The notes below the pieces were generated by a model that made no database searches, was not told the DNA's origin, and was given only the letters and a program-made list of their open reading frames with translations. 64,000 nt of DNA from Planctomyces sp. SH-PL62 (GTDB lineage: Bacteria; Planctomycetota; Planctomycetia; Planctomycetales; Planctomycetaceae). The stretch lies in assembly GCA_945893045.1 (NCBI GenBank), contig CAMDEA010000013.1, positions 1 to 64,000 on the forward strand, given 5' to 3'. Both the position numbers and the translations under genes were made by a program. Positions within the stretch are counted from its first letter, which is position 1; each line of letters starts with the position of its first letter. Below, in pieces: positions 1,182-64,000 of the stretch.

Positions 1182-1290
1182 GTGGGGCAGGTTTTCAACC
1201 TGCCCGGTCATGGTTTGTTTTCAGTTTCCGATGAAACATCGAATCGCGGCATTCTGAGGACTTGACGGGCAGGTTGAAAACCTGCCCCAC
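1182..1290. repeat. Inverted repeat, 25-nt perfect arms, between divergent genes
   Basis: The arms 1182-1206 and 1266-1290 are perfect reverse complements separated by 59 nt. Each arm is itself a hairpin (GGCAGGTT, loop TTC, AACCTGCC) preceded by GTGG. A related hairpin lies inside the DUF1553 gene at 18946. The element occupies most of the divergent upstream region, so it could influence expression of either gene; no promoter could be picked out. Confidence 0.85.
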
Positions 1291-1388
1291 GATTTCGCTG
1301 GGCCTTGTCGCGGAGTGTTGGCGGTTTCCGTAAAGTGAGTGCCGATGATCGCGGTTGGCGATCACGTCACGTTCCGAAAAGGAAAACC

Positions 1389-3149
1389 ATGTCAACGCGC
1401 TGGCAGCTCTGTGTGAATTGTCTAACCGCTTGGGCCATGTCGGTCTCAACGCTGCTGGCGGCTGAACCTGCGGACTTAGTGCTGTCGGGCGGAAAGATCG
1501 TCACGCTGGATGGGCAACTGCGCGTGGTCGAAGCGCTCGCGGCGCGCGGCGGCAAGATCATCACAGTGGGGAGCAACGCTGACGTACAGCCGTTGATTGG
1601 GCCGAAGACCGAGGTCATTCGTCTCGAGGGCAAGATGGCGCTGCCGGGTTTTATCGAGTCGCACTGTCACGCGGTTGGGGTCGCGCGGGGAATGTTGGAT
1701 CAGACCTATGCCGAGCTGACAAGCATCGCCGAGATGCAGGATTGGATTCGGCAGGCGGCGCGTGACGTGCCGGCCGGGCGCTGGATCGAAGTCCCGCGCA
1801 ACGAGATCACTCGCTTCAAGGAGCGTCGCTTTCCGACGCCGGCCGAGATGGACGCTGCCTGCACGACGCATCCAGTGCTCTTCAACTCGGTGTCGAACAA
1901 ATGGGTGCTCAACACAAAGGGTTTCGAGATGCTGGGACTGCTCGACCACAGCAGCAAGTTGGAGGATGGCGAGGTAGTGCGCGACGAATCCGGCAGGCCA
2001 ATCCTGTTGCGCGGCGGCACCGGGACCATTCGCAAGCACACGCCGAAGAATCCGGAGCACTCGCAAGACGAAGTGCTCGCGGCGTTGGCCAAGGTGTTGC
2101 GAACGTATAACCAAGTCGGCATCACCAGCATCTTCGAGCGTGCGACCGATCCCGGTAGCCTCAATCTGTTTCGTGAATTGCAGAAACGCGACCAATTGAC
2201 GACGCGCGTGACCGGCACGTTTCGATTCTCGGCGAAGACTGTCGAGGGCGTCGAAAAATATGTCGCGAGCCTCGGCCTCAAACCGGGCGAGGGAGATGAA
2301 TGGATCAAAGCCGGGCCACTGAAGATCACGATCGACGGCGGCATTCATTGGGGAACGACACGTTTGTCGGAGCCTTATGGCACAAAGCGAATCGCGTTCT
2401 ATCGGCTGACCGATCCGGAGTATCGCGGCGAGCAGTTCTTCTCGCTGGCAGAAATGCAGACGGTCTTCGCAACGGCCGAGAAGCTCGGCTGGCAGATGAG
2501 TTGCCACGTCTCCGGCGACGAAGGGACGCGGCAGGTCTTGGAAGCTCTCAGCCGCGTCGCCGCCGAACAGCCTGACGTGCGGAAGCGCCGCTTCACGCTG
2601 ATTCACGCTTACTTCCCGGCACCGGACATCGTGCATAAATGCCGCGAACTCGGCGTGTGCGTCGATACGCAGGGCTACCTCTACTACAAGGACGCGGACA
2701 CGCTGGCTCAGGTTTACGGTCCCGAATGGGCGTCGCGATTCATCGGACTGGGCGATTGGGTCCGCGGTGGCGTTCCAGTCGCGGTGAACTCCGATCACAT
2801 GATCGGCCTCGATCCGAATCACGCGATGAACTCGTTCAACCCACTGCTGATGCTGTCGATCGCCGTGACGCGCAAGACGCTCGATGGCCATGTGCATGGT
2901 CCGCAACAAGCTCTCTCGCGGCTGGATGCTCTGCGAGCCGTCACTCAATGGCCGGCGTATCTCAGCTTCGACGAACAGAAACTCGGCACCCTTGAAACCG
3001 GCAAGCTCGCCGACTTGATCGTGCTCAACGGCGACTACCTGACAGGCCCCGAGTCGGGCATCTTCAATCTCGCTGTCGAGCGAACGATTGTCGGTGGCAA
3101 AACGGTCTTTCGGCGGGGTGAATCGCCGCACGCGAAGTTGTCGCAATGA
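1389..3149 (+). CDS. Secreted amidohydrolase family 3 (YtcJ-like)
   Basis: This is a metal-dependent amidohydrolase of the Amidohydro_3/YtcJ group, about 586 aa. The start at ATG 1389 gives a signal peptide (hydrophobic stretch WAMSVSTLLAAEP), whereas an in-frame start at 1305 would add 28 unrelated residues. Family landmarks run in order: LVLSGGKIVTLDG (N-terminal beta sandwich), ALPGFIESHCHAVG with the HxH metal motif at about 92-94, IDGGIHWGT, CHVSGDEG, LIHAYF, VAVNSDHMIG near the C-terminal metal ligand, and KLADLIVLNGDYL where the strand returns to the sandwich. The substrate cannot be told; relatives act on formamides, N-acyl compounds or hydantoin-like rings. It appears monocistronic, followed by 197 nt without recognisable features. 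Confidence 0.9.
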   Translation: MSTRWQLCVNCLTAWAMSVSTLLAAEPADLVLSGGKIVTLDGQLRVVEALAARGGKIITVGSNADVQPLIGPKTEVIRLEGKMALPGFIESHCHAVGVARGMLDQTYAELTSIAEMQDWIRQAARDVPAGRWIEVPRNEITRFKERRFPTPAEMDAACTTHPVLFNSVSNKWVLNTKGFEMLGLLDHSSKLEDGEVVRDESGRPILLRGGTGTIRKHTPKNPEHSQDEVLAALAKVLRTYNQVGITSIFERATDPGSLNLFRELQKRDQLTTRVTGTFRFSAKTVEGVEKYVASLGLKPGEGDEWIKAGPLKITIDGGIHWGTTRLSEPYGTKRIAFYRLTDPEYRGEQFFSLAEMQTVFATAEKLGWQMSCHVSGDEGTRQVLEALSRVAAEQPDVRKRRFTLIHAYFPAPDIVHKCRELGVCVDTQGYLYYKDADTLAQVYGPEWASRFIGLGDWVRGGVPVAVNSDHMIGLDPNHAMNSFNPLLMLSIAVTRKTLDGHVHGPQQALSRLDALRAVTQWPAYLSFDEQKLGTLETGKLADLIVLNGDYLTGPESGIFNLAVERTIVGGKTVFRRGESPHAKLSQ

Positions 3150-3346
3150 ACGCCACAATAGCCGTAGGCGAAACGCGGATTGTCCGTGACGCATCGTACG
3201 CAGCATCGGTAGCGTGCCGTGCTGATGTGTTCGAGGTTTCAAAGTGGCTGTTCTCGATCTGGAGGTTCGTTTGGCTCGCACATCGCGCCATGCGCGAATA
3301 CTCTGATTGAAGGTCGCCTTCGCTCAACGCTCGGTTTCAGACTTCT

Positions 3347-6300
3347 ATGACAAAGTCGGGCCAATCTTTGCCGCCGGAACTGCTCGCGCGAGTTTGCGAG
3401 GCCGTCGAACAATTCGGCGCGGCGTGGCAGGCCGTCGCTGAAGGTGAGAGGCCCCCCTGGATCGAGGACGCCTTACGAAAAATTTCCGCCACCGATCAAC
3501 CCGCCTTTCTGCGTGAGCTTCTGGTCATCGACCTGAATTGCCGCCGGCGCTTCGGCGAGCAACCGATCGTGAAGGATTATGCGGCACGATTTCCCAAGCA
3601 CGCGAAGCTGGTCGATGAGGTCTTCGAAGTTTTCCACGAAGCGCAGCATGATCAGGCCTCCCAAACATTGGCGGCGCGATCTTTCGTCGAAGGAACTGGT
3701 GTCGACCCACAACGGCCACCGACGCCTGAAATCAATCCGCAATTCGCGGATCTCGCCTTCAGTCCAGGTGACGTGTTGCATGACTATGTGCTGCTCGAAA
3801 AGCTGGGCAAAGGTGGCATGGGGGTCGTCTTCAAGGCACAGCATTCGCGATTGAAGAAGATCGTCGCGATCAAAGTCCTTTTGGAGCGGCGAACCTCTGA
3901 TCCCAATGCGATCGCTCGGTTTCAACGTGAGATGGAGGCGGTCGGCCAGTTGCGTCATCCGCATGTCGTCGAGGCTTACGATGCTGGTGACGCGGAGGGC
4001 ACGCATTATCTCGTCATCGAATACGTCGCGGGGATGGATGTTTCCACGGTGATCCGGTCGATCTGCGGGTCAGGGCTTGGTTCGCAGCGCGAGTCCGAAT
4101 TCGACACGGGGATCACACCGACCCACGGTTCGCAGAGCCACGACACCCTGGACTCCGCGCCACCCGCGTCCGATCCGCTCTCCGCATCGGATGTGCTGGC
4201 GACACAACCCACCCAGAAAGCGGCACCGACGATTTCGTCCGCCGATGCCTGTGAGATCATTCGGCAGGCCGCGCTCGGCTTGCAGCACGCGCACGAGCGC
4301 GGTCTCATCCACCGTGATGTCAAGCCGTCGAACTTGCTGCTCTCGACGGAAGGCGTTGTCAAAGTGCTCGACTTGGGACTGGCACGTCTGCAGACCGAAC
4401 ATATCAACTCCGCGCTCACCAGCTTTGGCATGGTCATGGGGACCATTGATTACATCTCTCCCGAACAGGTTCTGAATTCGCATCAGGTTGATGCTCGAAC
4501 CGACCTCTACAGTCTGGGATGCACGATGTATCACTTGCTGGCCGGTCATCCGCCGTACCACGGATCGGAGTACTCGTCGGCCTATCAAAAAATGAAGGCT
4601 CACGAGATCGCCACGCCACCGGCCATTCCCCGCCAGGACATCCCGTCTGGTGTGCTGGCCATCCTCGACAAACTGCTGCGCAAGCAACCGGCGGAGCGGT
4701 TCGCTTCGGCGGGAGAAGTGTCCGCCGCGCTGGCTCCCTTCACCGCCGGTTGTGATTTGATCCGACTGCTCGACGTTGCGAACGGCGCGGAACCCATCGC
4801 GTCAAATTCCCCGATGGCTGGCTCCGCCGTTCCGCTGACCGCCGAACTCACCGAGGCAACCGCACTGCGACCTCCACACCGAACCATGAACCGCTCGTGG
4901 CCCCGATGGGTGACGTGTGCAATGTTATTGCTGGCGTTCGTGGTGTGGGGGATCAAATTCCAGCCGACCATATTCTGGGCGAAGGGGTCGCGCGTTCAAA
5001 ATTCAAAATTGGCGGGGGAGGATTTGGTGAGTCCAACGACTCCTGTGCCGCCAATTTTGAATTTTGAACGCGCGACCCTTACTGAACCGCCGCCGTGGCC
5101 GTTGGGGCCGAGCGAGAATGTGATTCCAGGGATCGTGACTCGGCCGACGGCTTTGCCGGGGATCGAGCGGTGGCAGGTGACGACGGTGTTGCCGCGCAGT
5201 CCGGTGCCAAGTGTCTCGTGGAGTAAGCAGGGGTTGCTGGCGGTTGGGTCTCTCGAGGGGATGGTCCGAGTCTACGACGCCCAGACCATGCAACTGCGGC
5301 ACCTGCGGGGACCGCATGACCGGAAGCGAAATGACCATCCGCGAACGCATCTGACTTGGAACCCACAAGGAACTTGGCTGGCCTCAACCAGTCGTGATGG
5401 CTTGCGATTGTGGAAGTCCGATGGCGCGCCGGGGCCGGTCTTCGACATCAGCTATGCCTACTCTGCGGCTTGGCATCCCGCTGGAGAATTGTTGGCGGTT
5501 CGCGATCTGGCTCACGTCCATTTCTGTCGCGTTGACGGAACTCGCGGGCCAGTGATTGATTCCCACACGGAATGTCTCGCGTGGAGTCCCGATGGCTCGC
5601 GCTTGGCGATTGGCGGCGCACAGGGGAAGGATGGGATTCGATTCTGGAAACAGGATGGCTCGGCCGATGGCGAAATCTCAAACGTCCCCGGCCCGACGAC
5701 CAGCTTGGCGTGGAGTCCCGCAGGGGACCGCCTGGTGACGGGGAGTCGGAACGGACTCGTACAGATTTGGAAGACCGATGGGACATCGGGGCCAGTCATC
5801 GCCGAAGCCACTGCCGGTCTCGGAGCGATTTATGATTTGCAATGGAATCCCGATGGTCAGCACATCGCCGCCGCTACGGATGGAAAGGGGGGCCAAGTAT
5901 GGAATCTCGACGACCTGTCTGTGGTTGGCATTCGGTTTCAAAACTTCAACATGGGGTGTGCCAGCCTCGCGTGGAGTCCGGATGGACAATTGCTGGCCGT
6001 AAGTCAGACCGATAACAATTCAACGTTCGGGATTTGGGATCTAAAGGGGAATCGCCAGGCGTTCCATGATGCGAGCCACGCTAGTCATCCAAATGGGCTC
6101 GCGTCGAATGCCGATGGGAAGACGCTGGCAGTGCCCGATGGACTCGGTCGCATTCGTTTTTGGAATCCGAACGGTGAGCAAACTTCGATCTCGAAGTTCA
6201 CAGGCGACGGCGTTTTGCATCAGGTGCAATGGCATCCGCAACTCGCCGACCGGATGTCATGGCGCGATGGCACTCATGCTGGCTTCAACCTCTGGTCAAA

Positions 6301-8201: not shown

Positions 8202-8296
8202 GGGTCGCGCGTTCAAAATTCAAAATTGGCGGAGTTGACGCTATGGTGATTTCCACACGCTTCGTCCGCCAATTTTGAATTTTGAACGCGCGACCC
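8202..8296. repeat. Palindrome directly after the kinase stop codon, same arms as at 4985
   Basis: The arms 8202-8232 and 8266-8296 match the arms at 4985-5078 base for base, but the 33-nt spacer is unrelated. It begins two bases after the TGA and fills most of the gap to the convergent methyltransferase gene, where it could act as a bidirectional transcription stop. Confidence 0.95.
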
Positions 8297-11735: not shown

Positions 11736-11875
11736 GAGGTGCTTCCGGTGAACAAGAGCGACGGAAATGTTGAGCGAATAAGCTCATTCTGAAACGCCAA
11801 AGCGATAGTAGTTCAACCCCCGAAACGGGACAAGAGGTTGTCTGCGAGAGCCAACGCGAGTGCGGTCTTCCCTCA

Positions 11876-11975
11876 AGTAACCCGCAGCGTCAGCGAGGGC
11901 TTGCGCTCATCACCGCGAACATTCCGAAACCAAAGTCTCATGAAGTGTTCGCCCTCGCTCACGCTTCGGGTTACT
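11876..11975. repeat. Inverted repeat between prc and the alpha/beta hydrolase
   Basis: The arms 11876-11900 and 11951-11975 pair at 23 of 25 positions. Each reads AGTAACCCGMAGCGTSAGCG, that is GTAA followed by a small GC stem. It lies upstream of prc and ends 7 nt before the stop of the next minus-strand gene, so it fills the 246-nt intergenic gap. Confidence 0.8.
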
Positions 11976-11981
11976 TCGAAC

Positions 11982-13999: not shown

Positions 14000-14063
14000 C
14001 GTAGCCTGACTCTCCGAGTCGGGACGGTTTCTTTTCGCTCCCGACTCGGAGAGTCAGGCTACG
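14000..14063. repeat. Inverted repeat, 25-nt perfect arms, GTAG-headed
   Basis: The arms 14000-14024 and 14039-14063 are perfect reverse complements around a 14-nt spacer. Each arm begins CGTAG and holds the hairpin GACTC-TCC-GAGTC. It lies between the hydrolase start and the channel gene end, both on the minus strand. Confidence 0.9.
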
Positions 14064-15385: not shown

Positions 15386-15453
15386 GGGGTCAGGCACTTC
15401 GGAATTTCGGAATTGGCCGAGGCCAATTCCGAAATTCCGAAATGCCTGCCCCC
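15386..15453. repeat. Near-perfect palindrome, 33-nt arms with 2-nt centre
   Basis: The arms 15386-15418 and 15421-15453 pair at 31 of 33 positions around the central GA. The arms contain the direct repeat GGAATT.CGGAATT. It sits between the channel start and the gatB end and would form a very stable hairpin on either strand. Confidence 0.9.
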
Positions 15454-17224: not shown

Positions 17225-17294
17225 TTTTCGCCCTTCATTTTCTGCCGGCGTCCGACGGCTCTCGGCTGAGGCAGCGAAAAATGAAGGGCGAAAA
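17225..17294. repeat. Inverted repeat upstream of the DUF1549/1553 gene
   Basis: The arms TTTTCGCCCTTCATTTT at 17225-17241 and the reverse complement at 17278-17294 are perfect over 17 nt. The 380-nt gap between the divergent gatB and DUF1549/1553 starts holds nothing else I can identify. Confidence 0.75.
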
Positions 17295-17373: not shown

Positions 17374-19899
17374 ATGCGATACCTGTTGTTTGCTGTTTGC
17401 TGCCTGAACTCTGTCATCAACGTCTCGAAGGGGCGAGCCGCCGACATCGACTTTGCTCACGACGTGCAGCCGATCCTCAGCAAGCGTTGCGCGAAATGTC
17501 ATTCGGGAACACAACGCAAAGGGGGCCTGTCGATCAACTCACGACAGTCGCTGCTCACCGGCGGTGAAAGTGGTCGAGTCGTCCATCCCGGCAAGAGCGG
17601 CGACAGCCCGCTGATGGCTCGCATCACCGCATCCGACAACTCCCAGCGAATGCCCCCCGAAGGTGAGCCGCTCACGAAACCACAAATCGAAACGCTCCGC
17701 CGTTGGATCGACGCCGGCCTCACATGGGAAGACGGCTTTTCGTTTGGCATGACCTTTACGCGAGCACCACTCGCCCCACGACGCCCCGCTGTTCCCGCTG
17801 GCGAAGGGAATCCAATTGATCGTTTCCTCGTTGATCAGATTTCAAATCTCAAATCTCAGATTTCAAATCCTAAAACACTGACAACCGACCGCATCTTCGT
17901 TCGCCGCGCATTCCTCGATCTCATTGGCCTGCTGCCGACGCCGGCCGAGCTCGATGAGTTCGTCAACGACACCGCTCCGGACAAACGCGACAAGCTGATC
18001 GTTCGCTTGCTCACGGATCGAAGCAACTACGCCGACCACTGGCTCACGTTTTGGAATGACCTGCTTCGCAATGCGTATCAAGGGACGGGCTTCATCGACG
18101 GCGGTCGCAAGCAGATCACCGGCTGGCTGTACGAGTCACTGCTGACCAACAAACCCTATGACCAATTCGCCCGCGAACTGATCGAAGCGGCTCCGGGCGC
18201 GGAAGGTTTTACGTTCGGCATCAAATGGCGCGGCACCGTCAACGAAAGCCAGCGCCGAGAAATCCAAGCCGCTCAGTCCATCAGCCAAGTCCTGCTCGGC
18301 ACAAACCTGAAATGCGCGAGCTGCCACGACAGCTTCGTCAACGACTGGAAACTGACCGATGCGTACGCGCTGGCTTCCGTCTTCGCAGATTCGCCGCTCG
18401 AACTGCACCGCTGCGACAAGCCAACCGGCAAACCGGCAGCCGTTGGGTTCCTGTACCCCGAACTTGGCCAGATCAACGCCACCGCTCGGCCTGAACGCCA
18501 AAAGCAACTCGCCACGCTGTTGACGAAACCGGAGAACGGCCGGTTCGCGCGCGTGATCGTCAATCGCTTGTGGGCGAAGCTGATGGGCCGCGGTTTGATC
18601 GAACCGCTCGACAACCTCGATGCGGATTCGTGGCATCGCGACTTGCTGGATTGGCTGGCCAGCGACTTCGTCGAGCACGGCCACGATCTGAAACACACGC
18701 TGCGGATGATCGCCACTTCGCGAGCGTACCAACTTCCCTCCGTAGGAATCGCCGACGATGCGTCGTCCGACGATCCGTTTGAGTTTCGTGGCCCCCTCAT
18801 CAAACGCTTGTCGGCCGAGCAATTCGTCGATGCCGTCACTTCACTGACGAAGACCTGGCGACCAATCTCGCTGCCGCTGCTGCGCGTGGACGGACGCGGG
18901 CAAGCCGGACAACTCGGCGCGATCGCGCGAGCGATCCACAACGTGGGGCACGTTTCCAACGTGCCCGGACCAAACGCCACGAAGCACGAGCACCTTGGCA
19001 ACGTGTTCCATACGGCCAAATGGCTCTGGTCAAACGCTGACGCCCAGCAAGCTGCGGCAGACAAAGCCGTCTATTTCCGCAAGACGTTGAAGCTCGTCCG
19101 CGACATGCCGTTCGTCTTCCTGACCATCGCCGCCGACAACGAGTGCGACTTCTACATCAACGGCCAGAAAGTCGCGGACGCGAACAACTGGCAACAGCCG
19201 ACGCAGTCGCTTGTTGGCGGGCCGCTCAAGGTCGGCGACAATGTGCTTGCCGCGCGAGTCATCAACAAAGGCAACGGCCCCAACCCCGCCGGCTTCATCG
19301 CCGAGCTATTCGCCTTCGATGCTCGAATGCATCCGCAATGGACACAGACCACCGACGACTCGTGGCTCGCCAACGAGTCGTCCGAAAAAGACTGGGAGAA
19401 GTTCGCCTTCGATGCCTCCCATTGGAAAGCCGCTGTGGTCCTTGGCAATTCTCATTTGGCACCCTGGAACATTGCCGACGTTGTCTCAAAGAGTTCGACC
19501 TTGATGACTCCAGCAACTCTGGCTGCATTGCAAGACGTCCGCTTGCGAGCCGCATTGCTCCCGCAGGACCAACTGCAATCCGCGCTCGGCCGCCCACACC
19601 GCGAGCAAGTCGTTTCGCACCGCGAGTCCCTCGCAACAATGCTGCAAGCCCTGGAACTCACCAACGGCTCCGCCCTTGATGAGCAACTCCAACAAGGAGC
19701 CGATCATTGGCTGCGCGAAACCGGCTCCGATCCGAACCGACTCGTATTGTCCATCTCTCTCGCCTCCCTCGGCCGCGAACCCACTTCCCGCGAACAAACG
19801 CTCGCGGCAGAATTACTCGGCAACCCACCGACGAAAAACGGTGTCGCCGATTTGCTCTGGACGATCATCTTGCTTCCTGAATTTCAATTGGTGCCATGA
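17374..19899 (+). CDS. PSCyt1-DUF1549-DUF1553 cytochrome-like protein with inserted beta domain
   Basis: About 841 aa. ATG 17374 follows GGAAAG and opens a signal peptide (LLFAVCCLNSV). A planctomycete cytochrome c domain comes first (VQPILSKRCAKCHSG, heme motif CxxCH; QRMPPEGEPL with the possible axial Met). DUF1549 follows (NPIDRFLVDQI, RRAFLDLIGLLPTPAEL, SNYADHWLTFW) with a second heme-like CASCH motif. DUF1553 (FARVIVNRLWAKLMGRGL, LLDWLASDFVEH, RAYQLPS) is split near residue 525-700 by a beta-rich stretch (AVYFRKTL, CDFYINGQKV) that resembles a galactose-binding fold, before it resumes at ALGRPHREQV. The pair with DUF1501 is common in planctomycetes; its function is unproven, though an exported redox role is likely. 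The end overlaps the next gene by ATGA. Confidence 0.92.
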   Translation: MRYLLFAVCCLNSVINVSKGRAADIDFAHDVQPILSKRCAKCHSGTQRKGGLSINSRQSLLTGGESGRVVHPGKSGDSPLMARITASDNSQRMPPEGEPLTKPQIETLRRWIDAGLTWEDGFSFGMTFTRAPLAPRRPAVPAGEGNPIDRFLVDQISNLKSQISNPKTLTTDRIFVRRAFLDLIGLLPTPAELDEFVNDTAPDKRDKLIVRLLTDRSNYADHWLTFWNDLLRNAYQGTGFIDGGRKQITGWLYESLLTNKPYDQFARELIEAAPGAEGFTFGIKWRGTVNESQRREIQAAQSISQVLLGTNLKCASCHDSFVNDWKLTDAYALASVFADSPLELHRCDKPTGKPAAVGFLYPELGQINATARPERQKQLATLLTKPENGRFARVIVNRLWAKLMGRGLIEPLDNLDADSWHRDLLDWLASDFVEHGHDLKHTLRMIATSRAYQLPSVGIADDASSDDPFEFRGPLIKRLSAEQFVDAVTSLTKTWRPISLPLLRVDGRGQAGQLGAIARAIHNVGHVSNVPGPNATKHEHLGNVFHTAKWLWSNADAQQAAADKAVYFRKTLKLVRDMPFVFLTIAADNECDFYINGQKVADANNWQQPTQSLVGGPLKVGDNVLAARVINKGNGPNPAGFIAELFAFDARMHPQWTQTTDDSWLANESSEKDWEKFAFDASHWKAAVVLGNSHLAPWNIADVVSKSSTLMTPATLAALQDVRLRAALLPQDQLQSALGRPHREQVVSHRESLATMLQALELTNGSALDEQLQQGADHWLRETGSDPNRLVLSISLASLGREPTSREQTLAAELLGNPPTKNGVADLLWTIILLPEFQLVP
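17835..17869. repeat. In-frame repeat of a 14-nt AT-rich unit inside the DUF1549 region
   Basis: TCAGATTTCAAATC occurs at 17835-17848 and again at 17856-17869, separated by a related 7-mer. The AT-rich patch in a GC-rich gene encodes the low-complexity linker QISNLKSQISNPK between the cytochrome-linked segment and the DUF1549 core. Its composition is unlike the neighbouring codons, which suggests an inserted element. Confidence 0.7.
18946..18966. repeat. In-frame single hairpin unit inside the DUF1553 gene
   Basis: GGGCACGTT (18946-18954), loop TCC, AACGTGCCC (18958-18966) is a perfect 9-bp stem, preceded by GTG. It encodes GHVSNVPG at the border where the extra beta domain begins. It is the same architecture as the arms at 1182-1290. 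Confidence 0.75.
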
Positions 19900-21392: not shown

Positions 21393-21421
21393 GTCAGCAG
21401 CGGCGAAACCGCAAAGTAGCT

Positions 21422-21575
21422 GAGTCACTCCGTGACTCGATTCTAAGTGGACCCGCAGAGATGCCTAGGGAGCAACGTTTCGCCAGAACGCGGGTGAATG
21501 GCCGAAAATCCGCGTTCTGGCGAACGGCGGATACCCAAAGAAATCCTTCCGGTCCAATTAATCACGGAGTGACTC
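21422..21575. repeat. Nested palindromes in the gap between convergent genes
   Basis: Three pieces are visible: the hairpin GAGTCAC-TCC-GTGACTC at 21422-21438; an inner pair TTCGCCAGAACGCGG 21479-21493 with its complement at 21510-21524; and TCACGGAGTGACTC at 21562-21575, which pairs with the first piece. The outer family recurs at 29384 and 53095, and the inner CGCCAGAACG family recurs at 42415. This looks like one element inserted within another. Confidence 0.8.
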
Positions 21576-49139: not shown

Positions 49140-49243
49140 CCGGCCGAATGCCGATCGCCGAAAGCCGATGGCCGTGATCCTTTTTTCCGAAACCACAAAA
49201 GTGTGATAACGGCTGTCGGCCATCGGCTCTCGGCGATCGGCCG
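49140..49243. repeat. Imperfect inverted repeat of GCCGATNGCCGA units
   Basis: The arms 49140-49180 and 49204-49243 pair with mismatches; both are built of CCGGCCGA, AGCCGATGGCCG and a TTATC/GATAAC end. The same family recurs at 51132-51239, with the GCCGAAAGCCGATGGCCG core in common. It lies between divergent genes. Confidence 0.75.
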
Positions 49244-49260
49244 GAATTGAAAGGGACATC

Positions 49261-50175
49261 GTGAGACTCAACAGACTCTGCCTTGTGTTGTTGTGCGTGC
49301 TCAGCAGCCGAGCCGTTCGCGGCGAGGATGCCATCAAGCATTCGTTCTTCATCGCCGGGCCATCGTTCACCGGGATCATTGACGAGGATGGTCGCGAAAC
49401 ATGGGACTCCGGCCGAGCGGCGGCTCGTGACGGTTTCGTGCTACCGAACGGCAATGTGCTCATTGCCTGGAGCGATGAAGTCAAAGAATTCACGCGCGAC
49501 AAGCAGATTGTGTTTCGATTCGCTCGTTCGGCGGAGGCGAAGGAGATCGGCACGGTCGAGCGACTCGACAACGGCCGCACTCTAATCACCGAGTTGGGGC
49601 CGAAACCACGCCTGCTGGAAGTGGATGCGGCCGGGAAGATCGTGCTCGAATTTCCGCTCAAGCCAGAGACCGACAACGCTCACATGCAAACGCGCATGGC
49701 TCGCAAGCTGCCGAGCGGCAATTACCTCGTGCCCCACTTGCTGGCGTTCAAGGTCAAGGAGTATTCGCCGACTGGCGAAGTGCTCAAGGAATTTCCGACC
49801 GACGCCGACGACCTCGGCGGACGCAAGGCGGAGAACTGGCCCTTCACGGCGATCCGGCTGGCGAACGGCAACACGCTGGTGAATCTCACACACGGAAACA
49901 AGACCGTCGAGATGGATGCCACCGGCAAAGTCGTTTGGCTAGTCGGCAACGATGACTTCCCCAACGAGAAACCCTTCGCTGATCCCTGTGGTGGGCAACG
50001 GTTGCCGAACGGAAACACGGTCATCGCCAGCTACGGTTCACGCGGCGTCATCAAGGTGTTCGAGGTGACTCCCGACAAGAAAATGGTTTGGACCTACACC
50101 GGCAAGCACAACGCGCACGAAATTCAGGTGCTGACAACCAACGGTAAGCCGATCGAAGGGAAGCCGTTGAAGTAG
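49261..50175 (+). CDS. Secreted beta-propeller protein of unknown function
   Basis: 304 aa starting at GTG 49261 with AAAGGGA 5 nt upstream. The signal peptide is LCLVLLCVLSSRAVRG. Repeated blades of the type RLDNGRTLITE, KLPSGNYLVPH, RLANGNTLVNL and RLPNGNTVIAS, alternating with EVDAAGKIV and EMDATGKVVW, resemble the PQQ/arylsulfotransferase-like propellers that planctomycetes export. I see no catalytic motif. The last codons (L-K-stop) lie in a palindrome arm. Confidence 0.8.
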   Translation: MRLNRLCLVLLCVLSSRAVRGEDAIKHSFFIAGPSFTGIIDEDGRETWDSGRAAARDGFVLPNGNVLIAWSDEVKEFTRDKQIVFRFARSAEAKEIGTVERLDNGRTLITELGPKPRLLEVDAAGKIVLEFPLKPETDNAHMQTRMARKLPSGNYLVPHLLAFKVKEYSPTGEVLKEFPTDADDLGGRKAENWPFTAIRLANGNTLVNLTHGNKTVEMDATGKVVWLVGNDDFPNEKPFADPCGGQRLPNGNTVIASYGSRGVIKVFEVTPDKKMVWTYTGKHNAHEIQVLTTNGKPIEGKPLK

Positions 50176-50256
50176 ATCAGCCTTTCCAGGCCGATCCGCA
50201 GCGGATTCGGGGCCGCTGAACCCTTCGGGGCAGGCTGGAAAGCCTGACCTACTTCA
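50168..50256. repeat. Inverted repeat holding both stop codons of a convergent gene pair
   Basis: The arms 50168-50193 and 50231-50256 pair at 22 of 26 positions. Both contain TTGAAGTAG at or near the end, so the plus gene (PLK-stop, TAG 50173-50175) and the minus gene (RLK-stop, TAG 50251-50249) end identically. Each arm folds with a TTCC loop; one arm uses a C-G pair where the other uses G-C. Confidence 0.9.
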
Positions 50257-51115
50257 AGCGCTTGTCGAAGTACTCAAATAGCGCGGCTTCGGCCTTCTCC
50301 GCGTCGGCACCTTTGAAGCCGTGCCCGGCTCCTTCAAGCGTCAGCAGTTCGGCCTCGACGGTCGCGGCTTTCAGCTTGTCAATCAGCCACACCGCTTGCT
50401 CGTGAGCGACGTACTTGTCCTCGGTGCCGTGAATGCAGAGTGTCGGGGCGGCGTTGGGCGTGACCCAATACAGCGGGCTGCCTTGAATGTGCAGAGCTTT
50501 GTGAGTGCTCAAGTCGCCGCCGAACCACAGCGGCAGAACTTCGTGAGCGTCCACGCTCTTGCCATAGGACTTCGTGAAGTCGCTCGGCCCATAGACGTTG
50601 ACGACGCAGGTGACGGCACTCGATTGATTGGCGTTGCCCCCCTGCCCTTCAAACTGAGGAACGCCAGCGGTCACTCCCAAGAACTGCGCGAGATGACCGC
50701 CCGCCGAACCACCCGTCACGCCAAGTTTGTCCGGGTTGATTTTGTATTTCGCGGCGTTCGCTCGCAGCCAACGAACAGCGGCCTTCGTGTCATGAACAGC
50801 CGCCGGGAACTTGTGCTTCGGCGCGAGCCGATACGTCATCGTCGCCGCCACGTAGCCCCGTTCGGCCAGCTTCACACAGAGTGCGTCGTAAGACTCGCGC
50901 TTGCCCGCTCGAAAGCCGCCGCCGTGAATGCAGAGCACCGTTGGGAACGGCCCATTGCCGCTCTTCGGTCGAGCCATGTTGAGCTGCAAGTGCGTGTCTT
51001 CGGGGTTTGAGTATTCGATCGCTTCCTCCCACACGACCGAATCCGGCACCGGCGGCGCGGCGGGAAGCGAAGCGGACAGCGAGACGATTAAGAAGGCTCC
51101 CAACAGATTTCTCAT
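50249..51115 (-). CDS. Secreted alpha/beta hydrolase (BD-FAE-like esterase)
   Basis: 288 aa from ATG 51115, with GGAG 5 nt upstream; longer frames run through a palindrome. The signal peptide is LLGAFLIVSLSASLPAA. Catalytic features are VLCIHGGGFRAG (oxyanion hole), GVTGGSAGGHLA (Ser elbow, GxSxG), LCIHGTEDKYV (acid) and LEGAGHGF (His). It belongs with the BD-FAE/dienelactone hydrolase-like group acting on carboxyl esters, possibly of plant or algal polysaccharides; the substrate is a guess. Confidence 0.9.
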   Translation of the reverse strand: MRNLLGAFLIVSLSASLPAAPPVPDSVVWEEAIEYSNPEDTHLQLNMARPKSGNGPFPTVLCIHGGGFRAGKRESYDALCVKLAERGYVAATMTYRLAPKHKFPAAVHDTKAAVRWLRANAAKYKINPDKLGVTGGSAGGHLAQFLGVTAGVPQFEGQGGNANQSSAVTCVVNVYGPSDFTKSYGKSVDAHEVLPLWFGGDLSTHKALHIQGSPLYWVTPNAAPTLCIHGTEDKYVAHEQAVWLIDKLKAATVEAELLTLEGAGHGFKGADAEKAEAALFEYFDKRLK

Positions 51116-51131
51116 GACGACTCCAGAAATG

Positions 51132-51239
51132 GTCCGGCCGATAGCCGTGAGCCGAAAGCCGATGGCCGTTATCTCACTTTCCCACCGAAGGATTTGGGAT
51201 AACGGCTGTCGGCCACCGGCTCTCGGCTTTCGGCCGGAC
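51132..51239. repeat. Long inverted repeat of the GCCGATGGCCG family
   Basis: The left arm 51132-51176 (GTCCGGCCGATAGCCG...) pairs with 51196-51239 (...CGGCCGGAC) with several internal shifts caused by the repeated GCCGA units. It separates the divergent esterase and redoxin-fusion genes and is related to 49140-49243. Confidence 0.8.
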
Positions 51240-53094: not shown

Positions 53095-53146
53095 GTAGAC
53101 GAGTCACTCCGTGACTCGAATTCGAGTCACGGAGTGACTCGTCTAC
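53095..53146. repeat. Perfect 52-bp palindrome at convergent gene ends
   Basis: Every base from 53095 to 53146 pairs around the centre GAATTC with no spacer. Each half is GTAGAC plus GAGTCAC-TCC-GTGACTC. It starts one base after the stop of the plus gene and includes the TAG of the minus gene (53145-53143). Same arms as at 29384. Confidence 0.97.
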
Positions 53147-54081: not shown

Positions 54082-54133
54082 GGTTGCTGGCCTTTCTGCC
54101 AATCGCTAGAAGTTCGCGCGAAGAGAGTTTGAA

Positions 54134-54224
54134 CCGCTAATCGACACTAATTGACGCTAATTCCAAACAACTTCAATCAATTTCTGACCTGACTTGATTA
54201 GCGAAGATTAGCGTCGATTAGTGG
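54134..54224. repeat. AT-rich inverted repeat of CTAATCGACRCTAAT units
   Basis: The arms 54134-54161 and 54197-54224 pair with about three mismatches and are built from repeated GCTAAT. The AT-rich composition contrasts with the flanking GC-rich genes. It sits between divergent genes. Confidence 0.8.
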
Positions 54225-54294
54225 TGTCACAACAAACCATAGAAACTTTGACCGGCCGATTTTCGGCCACAACTTGCCGAGGAGATTTACCGAG

Positions 54295-56741: not shown

Positions 56742-56872
56742 CGTCTGACTCTCGCGCTTGTAGGGTAGGACAAGCGGCACTTCGCCGCGCCGGCCCACCA
56801 CCCGGCGAACAACGCCATTATTGAAACCGAGATTGGTGGGCTGATGCTTGTACTAACCATTCGTGTTTGAGT

Positions 56873-56933
56873 TCCGATCCGTGTGCGAAGTGCGTTCGCC
56901 CTGAATTCGAACGCACTTCGCACACGGATCGGA
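56873..56933. repeat. Inverted repeat, 26-nt perfect arms, CACACGGAT family
   Basis: The arms 56873-56898 and 56908-56933 are perfect reverse complements around 9 nt. A shorter echo (CACACGGATC) follows at 56939. The family recurs at 60301-60392. The rest of the 315-nt gap (56742-57056) has an imperfect GTAGGACAAGC-type inverted repeat but no gene. Confidence 0.9.
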
Positions 56934-57056
56934 CCTTCCACACGGATCAAAACACATTTCCGAATCACCACCGAGAATCAGTCCTTCAAGTGCCAGACTT
57001 ATTGCGACCTGTCACTGCAACCCGAAAGCCCGACAGAATGATTCTCGGATGGATTG

Positions 57057-58814
57057 TTACGGCGCAACCTGCTTCCGTTGTTGTTCGTACTCTTTGGCAA
57101 CTCGCTCTGACGGCCAAGCGACTAACGTGAGGCGGACTTCGTCGAGTTGTCCGTGAAACATCTGCGTCTTGCTGGCGACGTAGTGGCCGAACTCCAGCGG
57201 ATGACCGATGGCCGCTCCGATCGAGCCGTCCGAGCGGGGCGATTCGGCCGAGAGTTTTCCGTTGACGTAGATCCGTTTGTGACCGGCTTTCGGATCGAAG
57301 ACGACCGTCACCATCGACCACGACTTGGCGGGCAGCGGTTGTTTCGCCGCGAGCGTGTCCCAGGCTTTGTCTTCGGCGGTGCGGGTTTCAAAGCGGGGGA
57401 TTGCATCTGTGCCAAGGTAAATGTTCCAGCCATGCTTCGACACGAGATAACCGTTGCCGGTGATGGACTCCGGCCGCACCCACAGCGAGATCGTGAGCGG
57501 GCCGGTCAATCTCAGTGACGTTACATTGCCGGCGGAGGCGACGCTGGTTTTGCCGTCGAAAAGCAGTGCCGATCTGCCGGTCGCGGTGCTGATCGGCTTG
57601 GCACCTTTCAATTCCAACGGATGCCGGCCGGCAGAATCTTTCGCGGTCGAGGACTGATCGGTCAACTCGTCGAACGAGTAATGCAGCACAAGTTCGTCGG
57701 CCAGTTTCGGCGCAGGCTCAGTTGGTTTCGCTGCCGGTTTGTCAGCGACGGCCAGTTCGATCGGAACCGGCATGCGATAGATGTCGAAGCCGCCGTCGCG
57801 CATCGAAACGAACGCGAGCGATTTTCCATCCGGAGACCACGCGGCTTGATCGTCGGTCGCGGAATGCCGAGTTAGATTCAGCAGGTCGCTGCCATCGGCT
57901 CGCATGAGCCAGATGTCGTAGTTGCCTGAACGATTCGAGGTGAAGCTGAGCCAGCGGCCATCGGGCGACCAGCGCGGATGCGTGTCCAGACCGGGCGATT
58001 TCGTGAGCCGAGTCAACTCGGTGCCGTCGGGGCGGACTTTGTAGATCTCGATGTTGCCATCGCGATCGGTGGCGAATGCGATCCACTCGCCATCCGGGGA
58101 CCAATCGGGTTGATGGCAATACGAGCCATCGACCTGCACGATTTGTGCGAGGTTCTTGCCATCAGCATCGACGACAAACAACCGCTCGGTCGTGCTGACC
58201 GCGCAGATCCGTTTGCCATCGGGCGACCAACACGGTTCTTCGCCAATACTCACTCCTTGGCTGGGGATGAGTTTTCGCAGTCGCGACGCTTTGAACTCGA
58301 GATCGACGTCACAGACGAACGTGTCCTTCGAGGAGTTGCCGGTGTCGTTGCCGCCGCCGGAGAGGACCAGTTGCTTGCCGTCGGGCGACCAGGCCGGATG
58401 CTCTTGGATTTGCACTTCGCGATCGAATTCGGCCAGCAGCCGCCGGTCATCGGTGCCGTCTGCTTTGACGAGATGTAACCCGACCAGAATCTGATTAGAC
58501 GCTCGCCGATTGGCGTAGTGCCGCGAGTAAACAATGTGTGTGCCGGTTGGCGAATACCGTAAGAAGAATTTGGAGAAGTGCGTCTTCGTCAGACGCGTCG
58601 CTGGAGCAACAGACTCTTGAGCAGTCATGACCTTCGGCAGTCCGATCGCCCATAAGAGCGTCGCCACGAACAACCAGCCGCACGACTGCTGCCGCCCCCC
58701 ATTCCCTTGACCACATTCCTTTGATTGCCAATCGCGAATCAAAGGAATGTGGTCAAGGGAATGGGACGAGCGGGCGACTGCCGGATTCATGGCCGAGGTC
58801 ATCATCGGACTCAT
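57057..58814 (-). CDS. TolB-like beta-propeller protein with C-terminal LamG domain
   Basis: 585 aa if it starts at ATG 58814, which overlaps the DUF1501 stop by ATGA and implies coupled translation. Residues 17-39 are encoded by a palindrome. The hydrophobic export segment comes only after it (CGWLFVATLLWAIGLPKV), so the signal peptide has a long leader. Six WD40-like TolB blades follow (HPAWSPDGKQLVLSGG, EPCWSPDGKRICAVS, QPDWSPDGEWIAFATD, HPRWSPDGRWLSFTSN, QAAWSPDGKSLAFVS), then a LamG/concanavalin-like domain (LHYSFDE, LTISLWVRPESI, HKRIYVNGKL, GQLDEVRL). It is probably an exported binding protein paired with DUF1501. Confidence 0.85.
   Translation of the reverse strand: MSPMMTSAMNPAVARSSHSLDHIPLIRDWQSKECGQGNGGRQQSCGWLFVATLLWAIGLPKVMTAQESVAPATRLTKTHFSKFFLRYSPTGTHIVYSRHYANRRASNQILVGLHLVKADGTDDRRLLAEFDREVQIQEHPAWSPDGKQLVLSGGGNDTGNSSKDTFVCDVDLEFKASRLRKLIPSQGVSIGEEPCWSPDGKRICAVSTTERLFVVDADGKNLAQIVQVDGSYCHQPDWSPDGEWIAFATDRDGNIEIYKVRPDGTELTRLTKSPGLDTHPRWSPDGRWLSFTSNRSGNYDIWLMRADGSDLLNLTRHSATDDQAAWSPDGKSLAFVSMRDGGFDIYRMPVPIELAVADKPAAKPTEPAPKLADELVLHYSFDELTDQSSTAKDSAGRHPLELKGAKPISTATGRSALLFDGKTSVASAGNVTSLRLTGPLTISLWVRPESITGNGYLVSKHGWNIYLGTDAIPRFETRTAEDKAWDTLAAKQPLPAKSWSMVTVVFDPKAGHKRIYVNGKLSAESPRSDGSIGAAIGHPLEFGHYVASKTQMFHGQLDEVRLTLVAWPSERVAKEYEQQRKQVAP
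58698..58765. repeat. In-frame palindrome near the 5' end of the TolB-LamG gene, 29-nt perfect arms
   Basis: The arms 58698-58726 and 58737-58765 are perfect reverse complements around 10 nt. It encodes HSLDHIPLIRDWQSKECGQG between the coupled start codon and the export segment. Confidence 0.95.
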
Positions 58815-60300: not shown

Positions 60301-60392
60301 ACTTCGCACACGGATGCGAGAGCCGCACACGGATAAACGATGCAACTACCTTGTCTTCATCCGTGTGCGCCTCTCGCATCCGTGTGCGAAGT
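60301..60392. repeat. Inverted repeat, 34-nt arms with one mismatch
   Basis: The arms 60301-60334 and 60359-60392 pair at 33 of 34 positions around 24 nt. CACACGGAT occurs twice in each arm, linking it to 56873-56933. It lies between the divergent DUF1501 and M28 genes. Confidence 0.95.
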
Positions 60393-62126: not shown

Positions 62127-62135
62127 GGAGTTGTC

Positions 62136-62798: not shown

Positions 62799-62811
62799 CC
62801 TTGCCGAGTCG

Positions 62812-62894
62812 CTCACGGCGCTCGTAGTGACCCGATTCATCGGGGCAGAATCGCTCTCGACCCCATCAATGGAGTCATTACGAGCGCGCTGACA
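62812..62894. repeat. Imperfect inverted repeat between convergent genes
   Basis: CTCACGGCGCTCGTAGTGAC at 62813-62832 pairs at 16 of 20 positions with 62875-62894; the core GCGCTCGTARTGAC is shared. It is weaker than the other elements and may be an older, decayed copy. Confidence 0.55.
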
Positions 62895-62907
62895 GATTCG
62901 TCTTGGC

Positions 62908-64000
62908 TCATCGCGCGGAGTCGATCTGAAAGCGGCGTTCGATGCGGGACCAATGCCCTTGGCGATCTCGAACCGCCACCTTGAGCGTGCCGGACGGAAG
63001 CCGGCTCAGCGGTGACGACAGCTTGAGCTCCCACACACCTTGCGATTTCTGCTGGAACTTCGACGCCAAGTTGTCACCAGCGGCGAGTCCTTCCAGAGCG
63101 AAGTCGGCTCGGACATCAAAGCTGTCGGTTTCCAACCCGCTGTCGTAATCGTGCATGCCGATCAGGAGGCGAGTGAGCGGAGCATTCGCGCCGGGTTGTG
63201 GCGACGTCAGCGTCAGGATCGGGCGGTTATCGTCGAGCATCCAGCCGAAGCCGCGCTGCTCCGGATGAGCGGGATCGAAGTCAAAGTCGATCGGACAGCC
63301 GAGGTCGATCCAGCGGACGATCGTGAGTCGATCTTCGTCCGAGAGTGCCTCCACTTTGATCGCCTTGCCATCGGGACCGCGCAACTTTCCAGCGACTGCA
63401 TCCGGCGGCGGCATCACGCTGCCAAGATAGTCGAGGTCGTAGGCGTGACGATGCTTCGGCGTCTCGATCTTCTCGCCTTTGATCGCGAAGTATCCGACGC
63501 CCGGTTCCGGTTCGGACGGGTGATCGTCGTTGGAGAATCCATCCAGCCGCTCGCCGAAGATTTTCCAGACGAGCAGACTCCGCCTTGCTTGCATCTTGCG
63601 GATGTAGCGTGAGGCGTTCGGATAGCCCCACGAGTCGTAGCCGATCGGCTTGTGTCCGAACTTCGCCCGTTCGTCCATCGCCAGCCGCAGGTACGTGCCG
63701 GGGAACTTGCCGTGATGCTCGAATTGAATCTGCTCGTCGTCAGCGTCGAGCACTAAGTTGCCGGCCGGTTTGTCCCAAGACTTCGTGTGGCACGCGGTGC
63801 AACTCCGTTTGAGGATCGGCTGGATGTCGCGGAAGTATTCGACAGTGACGGCGCGTTCGGCTTTGGCGAGCCGGAGGGCGTCAGCCCCCGGACGATTCGC
63901 GGTCGCCGTCGTCCGGGGGCTGACGCCCTCCGGCTCACCAACGCGGTTCGTCAGCAACGGCGTCGTGTTGACCAAATCCCAAACGGCGTAATCCGGCTTT
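62908..64000 (-). CDS. Large c-type cytochrome-like protein, C-terminal part (N-terminus off the window)
   Basis: The frame is open to the window edge (first readable residues KPDYAVWDLVNTTPL), so the start is missing. VEYFRDIQPILKRSCTACHTKSWDKPAG is a planctomycete cytochrome domain with one CxxCH heme motif. GYDSWGYPNASRYIRKMQARRSLLVWKIFGERLDG and SVMPPPDAVAGKL, ALSDEDRLTIVRWIDLGCPIDFDFDP carry the conserved region; the C-terminal 90 residues look like an Ig-type beta domain (LKVAVRDRQGHWS). The order resembles the C-terminal part of HzsA-related planctomycete proteins, a low-confidence match. A palindrome encodes the segment just before the heme domain. Confidence 0.75.
   Translation of the reverse strand, partial: KPDYAVWDLVNTTPLLTNRVGEPEGVSPRTTATANRPGADALRLAKAERAVTVEYFRDIQPILKRSCTACHTKSWDKPAGNLVLDADDEQIQFEHHGKFPGTYLRLAMDERAKFGHKPIGYDSWGYPNASRYIRKMQARRSLLVWKIFGERLDGFSNDDHPSEPEPGVGYFAIKGEKIETPKHRHAYDLDYLGSVMPPPDAVAGKLRGPDGKAIKVEALSDEDRLTIVRWIDLGCPIDFDFDPAHPEQRGFGWMLDDNRPILTLTSPQPGANAPLTRLLIGMHDYDSGLETDSFDVRADFALEGLAAGDNLASKFQQKSQGVWELKLSSPLSRLPSGTLKVAVRDRQGHWSRIERRFQIDSAR
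63868..63936. repeat. In-frame palindrome in the cytochrome-like gene, 28-nt perfect arms
   Basis: The arms 63868-63895 and 63909-63936 are perfect reverse complements around 13 nt. On the coding strand it gives GEPEGVSPRTTATANRPGAD and ALRLA, a linker before the heme domain. Confidence 0.95.

Follow-up and report, generated by a model that had tools for sequence, protein, structure and literature searches.

High diversity of REP-like palindromes in a planctomycete genome and a word-in-arm class beyond them

The 64,000-nt stretch of Planctomyces sp. SH-PL62 DNA analysed here (the window) is crowded with inverted repeats of several families, which raises the question of what these repeats are and how they move. 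An initial annotation linked them to REP sequences mobilised by RAYT (Y1-type) transposases. According to our analysis, the genome combines REP/RAYT biology of the known kind, with a high diversity of families, and a word-in-arm class that lies beyond it. Very probably, it contains about 48 clusters of small mobile palindromes, with GTAG/GTGG families that are REPs moved by RAYTs and with several Y1 types side by side.

Inverted repeats of the window and their recurrence

The crowding is real: perfect inverted repeats with an arm length of 16 nt or more number 15 in the window, and each of 20 dinucleotide shuffles contains none. Perfect repeats with arms of at least 12 nt and a gap of at most 150 nt numbered 24 (0-3 in 20 shuffles), and those with arms of at least 14 nt numbered 18 (0-1 in shuffles). 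The assembly is fragmented, with a completeness of 89%; the palindrome counts cover 2.04 Mb (26% of the genome). The count of arms against shuffled controls proposed in the initial annotation supported recurrence: 26 of the 28 window palindromes have at least five other loci in these 2.04 Mb (5-50 each, compared to 0-2 matches in Markov-shuffled sequence). These counts refer to the best-recurring of nine 20-mers from the first 36 nt of each palindrome with up to three mismatches, a choice biased toward high values, and the shuffled control was run with the chosen 20-mer only. The two exceptions are the palindromes at 58698 (no other locus) and 34058 (three others, control one). In total, the 2.04 Mb contain 596 palindrome loci, a density of 292 per Mb that takes up 2.4% of bases, and 48 clusters with at least three arms contained 537 of 695 arms. 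Rfam gave no match to the window at gathering scores.

Sorting by eye assigned 12 of the 28 window palindromes to the GTAG/GTGG type, three to a GGGGTC-like foot, three to a YYAG centre and eight to a footless class with words repeated in the arms; two others remained, namely 34058 and 62805, the latter with a GTAG hairpin at one mismatch (Table 1). Because of this sorting, the claim that many of the repeats share one architecture of foot, stem and loop applies to the GTAG/GTGG type and hence to fewer than half of them. The foot is directly visible in 11 of the 12. A GTAG or GTGG 0-2 nt from a stem of at least 7 with a short loop was seen at 1182, 14001, 18943, 20661, 21416, 22884, 24844, 29411, 42415, 50172 and 53095, at some of these positions with one mismatch allowed, and was not seen at 21479. 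The latter, previously grouped with 42415, is a pair without a GTAG foot, nested between two GAGTCAC units. Likewise, 1182 and 18946 had been joined into one repeated family; 18946 belongs to the sister family GTGGGGCACGTT and is a single hairpin without a pair. At 22884 and 50161 (formerly 50168), each pair combines one GTCAGCCT-like with one GTCAGGCT-like unit.

Table 1 Palindromes and related features of the window. Positions are those of the window; other loci were counted in the 2.04 Mb analysed; G002, G004 and G008 are related genomes.
Position	Strand	Feature	Recurrence or basis
1182..1290	.	GTGG-foot REP pair, stem GGCAGGTT, loop TTC	47 other loci
4985..5078	.	GGGTC-footed palindrome, TTCAAAA direct repeats, in frame in linker of kinase-WD40 protein gene 3347-8200	15 other loci
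8202..8296	.	Second GGGTC/TTCAAAA palindrome, right behind stop codon of gene 3347-8200	15 other loci
11875..11976	.	GTAACCCG..GCGTCAGCGAGGG family palindrome, YYAG centre; gap in G004	50 other loci
14000..14063	.	GTAG REP pair CCTGACTC-TCC; same family at that place in G004	23 other loci
15386..15453	.	GGGGTC-footed palindrome with TTCGGAAT direct repeats	5 other loci
17225..17294	.	Word-in-arm palindrome, AATGAA-type words (class by eye)	7 other loci
18943..18965	+	Single GTGG hairpin GGCACGTT-TCC within gene 17374-19899, without second unit	40 other loci
20629..20684	.	GTAG-type REP pair CGCTCTCGCC within DUF1501 gene; net +30 nt vs G002, G004, G008	Comparison with relatives
21413..21584	.	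GTAGCTGAGTCAC-TCC REP units around nested CGCCAGAACG pair (21479-21524)	Inverted-repeat and hairpin inspection
22884..22965	.	GTAG REP pair, GTCAGGCT-TTCC family (also flanks RAYT gene on contig C27)	39 other loci
24800..24950	.	GGCTAACGCC family arms around nested GTAGCAGGCACAT-TCC REP pair (24844-24910)	Recurrence and hairpin inspection
29384..29433	.	GTAGACGAGTCAC-TCC REP pair, between two converging genes	37 other loci
34058..34092	.	Lone terminator-like hairpin, A/T-flanked, no family; conserved in G004	3 other loci, control 1
40430..40633	.	MITE-like element of about 204 bp, TGCCACAGAT-type ends; core 40471-40552 is CCACGGAT word-in-arm palindrome	Copy comparison
42415..42466	.	GTAGCCA..GCCA REP pair in 72-nt in-frame stretch of kinase-AAA gene 41310-45176, absent in G004 and G008	
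49140..49250	.	GCCGAT/GCCGAAA heptad palindrome, word-in-arm; short remnant only in G004	
50161..50263	.	GTAG REP pair, GTCAGGCT family	27 other loci
51132..51239	.	GCCGAT heptad palindrome, word-in-arm	22 other loci
53095..53146	.	GTAGACGAGTCAC-TCC REP pair; common to G002, different palindrome at that place in G008	37 other loci
54133..54225	.	CTAATCNNCG word-in-arm palindrome, period 10; CCAATG-type repeat there in G004	
56859..56947	.	CACACGGAT word-in-arm palindrome; none seen at that place in G002, G004, G008	
58698..58765	.	CATTCC word-in-arm palindrome, 29-nt perfect arms; other palindromes there in G002/G004 and in G008	0 other copies
60301..60392	.	CACACGGAT word-in-arm palindrome, shared with G002 and G004, not with G008	
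62805..62900	.	GCGCTCGTAGTGACCC family palindrome, outside the sorted types	9 other loci
63860..63944	.	GGAGGGCGTCAGCCCCCGG family palindrome, YYAG centre	48 other loci

Palindrome families and their Y1 genes

Units of most tested families form inverted pairs at near-fixed spacing. The GTAG/GTGG families are many-copied and mostly paired, a tandem arrangement prevails in the heptad families B8 and B11, and copies within genes are numerous for the REP families A2 (12/36) and A4 (23/51). With a GTAG/GTGG foot, a short stem, a 3-4-nt loop, inverted pairs and a mostly intergenic position, the hairpins resemble the REP, REPIN and BIME sequences associated with RAYT (TnpA-REP), as they do in RAYT genes flanked by their own REP and in REPs that change with the RAYT. 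They differ in the number of families per genome, which is above that in the literature passages compared, in nested units and in one site that carries two different pairs in two species.

A search for Y1 genes, also suggested initially, revealed at least 12 in the genome (11 by PF01797 and one more). One palindrome family lies on both sides of 9 of the 11 tested Y1 genes, compared to 13 of 1127 other genes no longer than 800 aa (Fisher p 3e-15); for the genes on contigs C9 and C30, the 12-mer test gave no family repeated on the two sides, and hairpins were seen nearby by eye. Planctomycetes also include R. baltica. The presence of several families side by side, regarded as unusual at this density in the initial annotation, is not new in itself, as passages of Di Nocera 2013 describe a plethora of tyrosine transposase genes with flanking repeats in R. 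baltica.

Among NCBIfam models, NF047646 (REP-associated tyrosine transposase) matches the C27, C155 and C31 proteins best, with scores of 78.7, 78.8 and 66.5 that fall below its cut-off of 80. RAYT genes flanked by their own REP were found for GTCAGGCT, GTAGCCCGACCCC (in a gene with a stop inside) and GTGGCGCACGCGG. The proposed RAYT link holds for the GTCAGGCT-TTCC family of the window (22884, 50161), and is not supported for the word-in-arm families, which flank none of the 11 Y1 genes tested. For the GAGTCAC, CGCCAGAACG, GGCACAT and CCTGACTC families, no Y1 partner was found within 200 nt in the 2.04 Mb examined.

Among 122 loci encoding relatives of the C27 RAYT, 80 were kept and 72 had enough flank. 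GT[AG]G hairpins occurred within 250 nt at 61 of these 72 loci but at only 41 of 360 control positions, and on both sides at 43 of the 72 loci compared to none of the 360 controls. Because hairpins with the reversed tag G[AG]TG were also present on either side of 24 of the 72 loci, part of this signal reflects hairpin density near RAYT genes. REPs are partner-specific in these relatives: within the 20 of 80 loci listed, six of the seven closest named relatives (53-83% identity) carry REPs similar to those of C27, of the GTAGGTCAG type, and more distant ones carry other REPs.

We propose that the GTAG/GTGG hairpins are REPs that would travel mostly as inverted pairs (REPINs/BIMEs). A RAYT-kind Y1 (HUH) transposase would recognise foot and hairpin as single-stranded DNA and move or copy the pair; a guide role of the tetranucleotide for the transposase is described in passages of PMC6006769. 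Cleavage would take place on the single strand at the foot, pairs would be copied, and enzymes of this genome may be active at present. The predicted substrates of the C27 RAYT are GTAGGTCAGGCT hairpins. Several Y1 types side by side would each have their own palindromes, and therefore several families could expand at once.

A second Y1 type is indicated by the GGGGTC-footed palindromes, a set of which flanks the C155 Y1 gene and which appear to be the repeats of a TIRYT-like gene. The TTCAAAATTGGCGG family is likewise outside the GTAG type and has a GGGTC foot like this kind. A Y1 gene that has a Bac_DnaA_C match at its C-terminus and lies between GGGGTC-footed inverted repeats is similar to the TIRYT with terminal inverted repeats GGGGWSAS in the passages compared (Di Nocera 2013; subclass 2.1 of Quentin 2018), whereas the match to this C-terminal helix-turn-helix is weak (25.8 against a gathering cut-off of 31.5) and the present repeats fall into several sub-families that contain short direct repeats. 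Furthermore, the C2 and C8 Y1 proteins contain a YxLEAQ motif and have repeated palindromes on their flanks, and at least two YYAG-centred families are probably repeats of such short Y1 genes. In passages of Quentin 2018, class 3 Y1 proteins of Planctomycetes, Acidobacteria and Proteobacteria have a Y----Q motif, which YxLEAQ resembles; this likeness concerns the motif and the flanking palindromes.

Word-in-arm palindromes

The eight word-in-arm palindromes of the window (CACACGGAT, GCCGAT, CTAAT, CATTCC and others; assigned by eye) have no GTAG foot and carry a short word that is directly repeated in each arm. CACACGGAT, GCCGATGGCCG, CTAAT and CATTCC had been counted among the REP-like families and do not qualify as REPs, having no GTAG/GTGG foot, no hairpin within the arm and no flanked Y1 gene that was found. 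By eye, the foot was not seen in copies of nine word-in-arm families, which have no common foot. Among 286 distinct arms of at least 20 nt, 41 contain a direct repeat (2.2 in shuffled sequence; some GGGGTC families are included), 78 a hairpin (6.5), none both and 167 neither. Elsewhere, direct-repeat arms were found at 1 of 27 planctomycete and 1 of 64 acidobacterial loci.

The CATTCC pattern occurred in 3 of 248 genomes of the class, a draw that included only two other genus members, and ATTCGCGC and CATCCGTGC in 4 and 3 of 12 genus genomes, respectively. These three patterns, searched widely or genus-wide, are confined to the genus or family, and their sites vary by species. In behaviour, with inverted units, near-fixed spacing and species-level presence or absence, word-in-arm families and REPs look alike. 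Covariation between the two arms gave opposite outcomes: free spacers were identical in 25 of 38 ATTCGCGC pairs compared to 4.8 in shuffles, a contrast inflated by using listed pairs with both arms fitting the pattern, dropping partnerless matches and keeping related copies, and identity at free sites of CTAAT arms was 0.48 versus 0.44 (p 0.26; 14 pairs, two overlapping). TAACTGA repeats of marine Beggiatoaceae are likewise short, intergenic and lineage-limited words; in the passages of PMC4679880, however, almost all are direct repeats, whereas here the words stand in both inverted-repeat arms. Of the literature matches to six element words, those listed appear unrelated by title, and titles and abstract beginnings of the papers listed for planctomycete MITEs and Rhodopirellula palindromes contained nothing on these elements, except PMC3733652.

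TIRYT-like Y1 enzymes whose cognate gene was lost or lies outside the sequence examined may move these families, which we consider plausible, if short of probable. The GGGGTC families likewise have direct repeats in their arms, one of them flanks the C155 gene with its DnaA-like match, and transposase genes and repeat families are not always found together according to the literature passages. Against this route, none of the 11 Y1 genes of the genome is flanked by a word-in-arm family, no listed CTAAT match lies within 2 kb of a listed Y1 match (12 genus genomes, by eye), none of the words occurs in perfect inverted repeats of 27 same-genus Y1 loci, and the families share no foot. Tentatively, word-in-arm families might form a separate class of tiny mobile elements that is recognised by its repeated words and moved by a factor outside the known Y1 enzymes, with one arm in some families being copied from the other; in the layout of this conjectured class, words would be repeated in each arm at a step of 7 to 20 nt and inverted between arms.

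It is rather doubtful that these families are MITEs of ordinary DDE transposons, with the palindromes merely their centres or ends. The CCACGGAT family (40471) forms the core of an element of 174-204 bp whose inverted ends are 19 nt long (up to five mismatches), and two of its five copies, sited at the centre of other palindromes, have CTAG on both sides. As in DDE-transposon MITEs, this suggests a duplication, and at least one word-in-arm family lies in a MITE-like element. An autonomous partner, however, was not found in the 2.04 Mb examined. For most other families, on most sides over half of the copies lose their best-matching similarity within about 15 nt of the palindrome, although it extends for 58-85 nt in single copies and for 500 nt in three CTAAT copies, and CCACGGAT copies contribute to the CATCCGTGC figures. 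Moreover, ORFs flanked by one family (63 entries, including overlapping frames and Y1 genes) yielded no transposase among the 12 scanned in Pfam: ten comprised an FGGY kinase, an HHH protein, a weak deacetylase match and seven without match, and two beside ATTCGCGC gave DUF1552 and no match. The wide converging pairs noticed (C8 29101/30839; C4 28666/30190/31507) enclose an FGGY kinase, a DUF1552 protein and one ORF that matches nothing in Pfam.

Gene positions and comparison with relatives

Some sites filled here are empty in relatives: G004 and G008 lack the 72-nt in-frame stretch with the REP pair at 42415, and all three relatives lack the pair at 20629. Across 66 gene gaps common to G004, 29 palindromes here correspond to the same family there in 9 cases, to another in 8 and to none in 12, where a shared 9-mer within palindromes defined the same family, possibly generously. 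When the three relatives were pooled, families differed in 17 of 36 gap comparisons with a palindrome in both species. Re-occupation of the same slot was not significant against G004 (8/20 versus 9/37, p 0.24) and reached p 0.04 in the pooled, non-independent rows; palindrome-bearing gaps are also the longer ones (median 232 versus 120). This is too weak to serve as proof of function.

Only 106 of 596 palindrome loci lie inside called genes compared to 83% of random positions (simple gene caller, all palindromes together), and their median distance to a 3' gene end is 61 nt (random 157). Immobile transcription terminators or other selected hairpins at gene 3' ends, which these positions and the exchanged families at shared gaps would suit, are a very unlikely explanation, given T-runs beside only 3 of 537 repeated-family arms (random 0.4%, so no enrichment), in-frame palindromes within genes at 4985, 20629 and 42415, and the weak re-occupation signal. 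Repeated families were thus rejected as intrinsic terminators; T-runs stand beside 10 of 158 lone or paired-only palindromes, and 34058 looks like an intrinsic terminator.

With dozens of tiny palindrome families on one chromosome, several with their own Y1 enzyme, this genome is a natural system for studying REP family competition, place exchange and transposase pairing. The word-in-arm class raises the concrete question of its mover, and an enzyme of its own would mean a new kind of small-element mobility.

Recurrence and architecture of the palindromes

The window (positions 1-64000 of contig C13) stems from a 7.83-Mb assembly (251 contigs, 89% complete). It is assigned to the planctomycetes by the planctomycete-type proteins PSCyt1, DUF1501 and DUF1559 that it encodes and by the Planctomycetota origin of the closest named RAYT relatives. 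The initial annotation had described about 26 REP/BIME-like palindromes of several families, and this dense, repeated population proved to be sound. An independent search revealed 24 perfect inverted repeats whose arms reach 12 nt or more, where 20 dinucleotide shuffles gave 0-3; for arms of at least 16 nt the count was 15, with 0 in every shuffle. Furthermore, within the 2.04 Mb of this genome that were searched, the arms of 26 of 28 window palindromes recurred at 5-50 other loci; shuffled sequence gave 0-2 matches. The two exceptions are the terminator-like palindrome 34058 and palindrome 58698, for which no further copy was found in these 2.04 Mb.

Throughout the same 2.04 Mb, 695 perfect inverted repeats (arm at least 13 nt, gap at most 150 nt) were detected and merged into 596 loci, which corresponds to 18.7 per 64 kb and 2.4% of bases. 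Grouping by shared 12-mers, a crude clustering that may split or merge families, yielded 48 clusters with at least three arms, which take in 537 of the 695 arms. The same test gave 21-26 inverted repeats per 64 kb in stretches of three same-genus genomes and 1.3 in 50 kb of E. coli K-12. Named RAYT-centred loci, which are a biased sample, showed 27 if they came from other planctomycetes and 9-12 if they came from other phyla.

Of the 286 distinct arms that are 20 nt or longer, 78 contain a hairpin (6.5 expected from shuffles) and 41 a direct repeat of at least 7 nt (2.2 expected); no arm combines both, and 167 have neither. The hairpin class includes the GTAG/GTGG families noted initially. The direct-repeat class comprises CACACGGAT, CTAAT, ATTCGCGC, CATTCCTCTG, CAATCC and others, together with some GGGGTC-footed families. 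In most families tested, the units are arranged as inverted pairs whose starts are a near-constant distance apart (GAGTCAC mostly 26-29 nt, CCACGGAT 48-54 nt, TTCAAAA 62-64 nt), and the units of the heptad families GCCGAT and ATTGAAA are mainly tandem. CCACGGAT is located in a MITE-like element of 174-204 bp with 19-nt inverted ends, and two of five copies have CTAG on either side and are centred in other palindromes. An autonomous copy was not found in the sequence examined. CTAG duplications may point to an IS5-like origin.

Features with coordinates in the window, in contigs (C) of this genome (G000) and in individual loci (L)
Feature	Location	Observation
94-nt palindrome	window 4985-5078	translated as an in-frame part of the linker region in a kinase-WD40 protein (gene 3347-8200); second copy directly after the stop codon
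Nested palindromes	window 21413-21584; 24800-24950	one family between two units of another
LRR and DUF1559 genes	window 21657-24385	lower G+C (55%); missed by a simple gene caller
~200-bp element	L082:9951-10154 (G000 C15); also C3 of same-genus genome G004	flanked by CTAG at each end; sits in the middle of other palindromes
Y1 gene	L017:609-1565	319 aa; weak DnaA C-terminal HTH match; GGGGTCAGGTC palindromes on its flanks
REP pairs	C18:20571-20659 (L092:571-659)	different pairs at one site here and in G004, with matching flanks; look as if swapped at their feet
CATCCGTGC arms	C22:61193-62153 (G000)	two diverging arms ~0.9 kb apart

Y1 transposase genes and their flanking palindromes

Eleven Y1 genes were identified in the genome by profile and a twelfth by protein query. 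Nine of the 11 were flanked on both sides by one repeated palindrome family; among the 1127 other called genes no longer than 800 aa, 13 were (p = 3e-15). The families concerned are ATAGCCCAGGGC (three genes), ATTAGCCGGTGG, GTAGGTCAGGCT, AGCACGACGCGCCAGCGAG, GAGCGGCACGGCGCTAGCC, GTAGCCCGACCCC and the GGGGTC family; by this test, the genes on C9 and C30 had no one repeated family on both sides. The GTAG foot at the C27 gene includes its stop codon TAG, the C11 gene is broken by a stop, and the twelfth gene, on C31, lies between GTGG/GTAG-CGCACGCGG hairpins. The best NCBIfam match of the C27, C155 and C31 proteins is the REP-associated tyrosine transposase, under its cut-off in all three cases, and that of the C217 and C9 proteins is the IS200 transposase, over the cut-off.

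The closest named relatives of the RAYT belong to the Planctomycetota. Relatives of the C27 protein were encoded at 122 loci, of which 80 were kept; in 72 of these, each flank was 150 nt or longer. At 61 of the 72 loci, a GT[AG]G hairpin was present no more than 250 nt away on either side (controls: 41 of 360), and at 43 on both sides (controls: 0 of 360); the reversed tag occurred on either side at 24 of the 72. Among the 20 loci inspected out of these 80, six of the seven closest relatives had GTAGGTCAG hairpins like the window family, one locus (L199) had GTAGGTCGGGC hairpins, another (L201) none, and more distant relatives had other hairpins. In these sequences, the REP changes along with its RAYT. 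Two RAYT loci, L212 (Verrucomicrobiales) and L243 (Planctomycetota), contain REPs of the GTGGGGCAGGTC type, which resemble the family at window position 1182 and suggest a candidate partner for it.

Palindromes with a word repeated in each arm

Palindromes without a GTAG foot in which a short word is directly repeated in each arm are rare in other named loci. Among arms of at least 20 nt they account for 1 of the 27 from other planctomycetes, 1 of the 64 from Acidobacteria, 2 of the 9 from Bacteroidota and neighbouring groups and none of the 5 from Chloroflexi; within the genus the counts are 12 of 52 (G004), 3 of 16 (G002) and 0 of 10 (G008). Of the 12 genomes of the genus, this one counted, 11 have the CTAAT pattern; elsewhere in the family it was detected in 3 of 13 genomes, and in the rest of the class in none of 15. 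The CATTCC pattern was detected in 3 of 248 genomes of the class, and one of these lies outside the genus. ATTCGCGC has 65 occurrences here; three further genomes of the genus have 5-18 each, and the remaining eight have none. Its free spacer is identical in both arms of 25 of 38 pairs (4.8 expected), which would be compatible with arm-to-arm copying or pairing; such identity was not seen in CTAAT pairs. No transposase was found among the 12 ORFs scanned between two arms.

Differences between genomes and known systems

The three same-genus genomes align over most of the window with roughly 72-95% identity. G004 and G008 lack a 72-nt stretch of a kinase-AAA gene that contains the REP pair at 42415, and at 20629 a DUF1501 gene is 30 nt longer through a REP pair than in G002, G004 and G008. 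The word-in-arm element 60301 is shared with G002 and G004 and is absent from G008. Because a short remnant of element 49140 persists in G004, loss or contraction may have occurred there. Of 66 gene gaps common with G004, 29 contain a palindrome here, with the same family (a shared 9-mer) in G004 in 9, a different one in 8 and none in 12; 9 have a palindrome in G004 only and 28 in neither genome.

The GTAG, GGGGTC and class-3-like parts are new representatives of kinds already described in two studies. GTAG and CGTC REPs occur in many phyla including Planctomycetes, with several families per genome; RAYT genes are flanked by their own REPs and TIRYT genes have GGGGWSAS repeats, and R. baltica contains a plethora of such transposase genes and repeats (PMC3733652, Di Nocera 2013). 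Y1 subclasses have been defined, among them the TIRYT subclass with a DnaA-like helix-turn-helix and a class 3 from Planctomycetes whose repeats are atypical (PMC6006769, Quentin 2018). Searches of open-access papers listed no description of word-in-arm palindromes. The proposed link to RAYT or Y1 transposases holds in part: it is right for the GTAG/GTGG and GGGGTC types and probably for the YYAG types. By visual sorting these types comprise 18 of the 28 palindromes in the window, and a partner gene was found for only some of their families. Two of the remaining palindromes are of other kinds, and eight represent a different, unexplained class.
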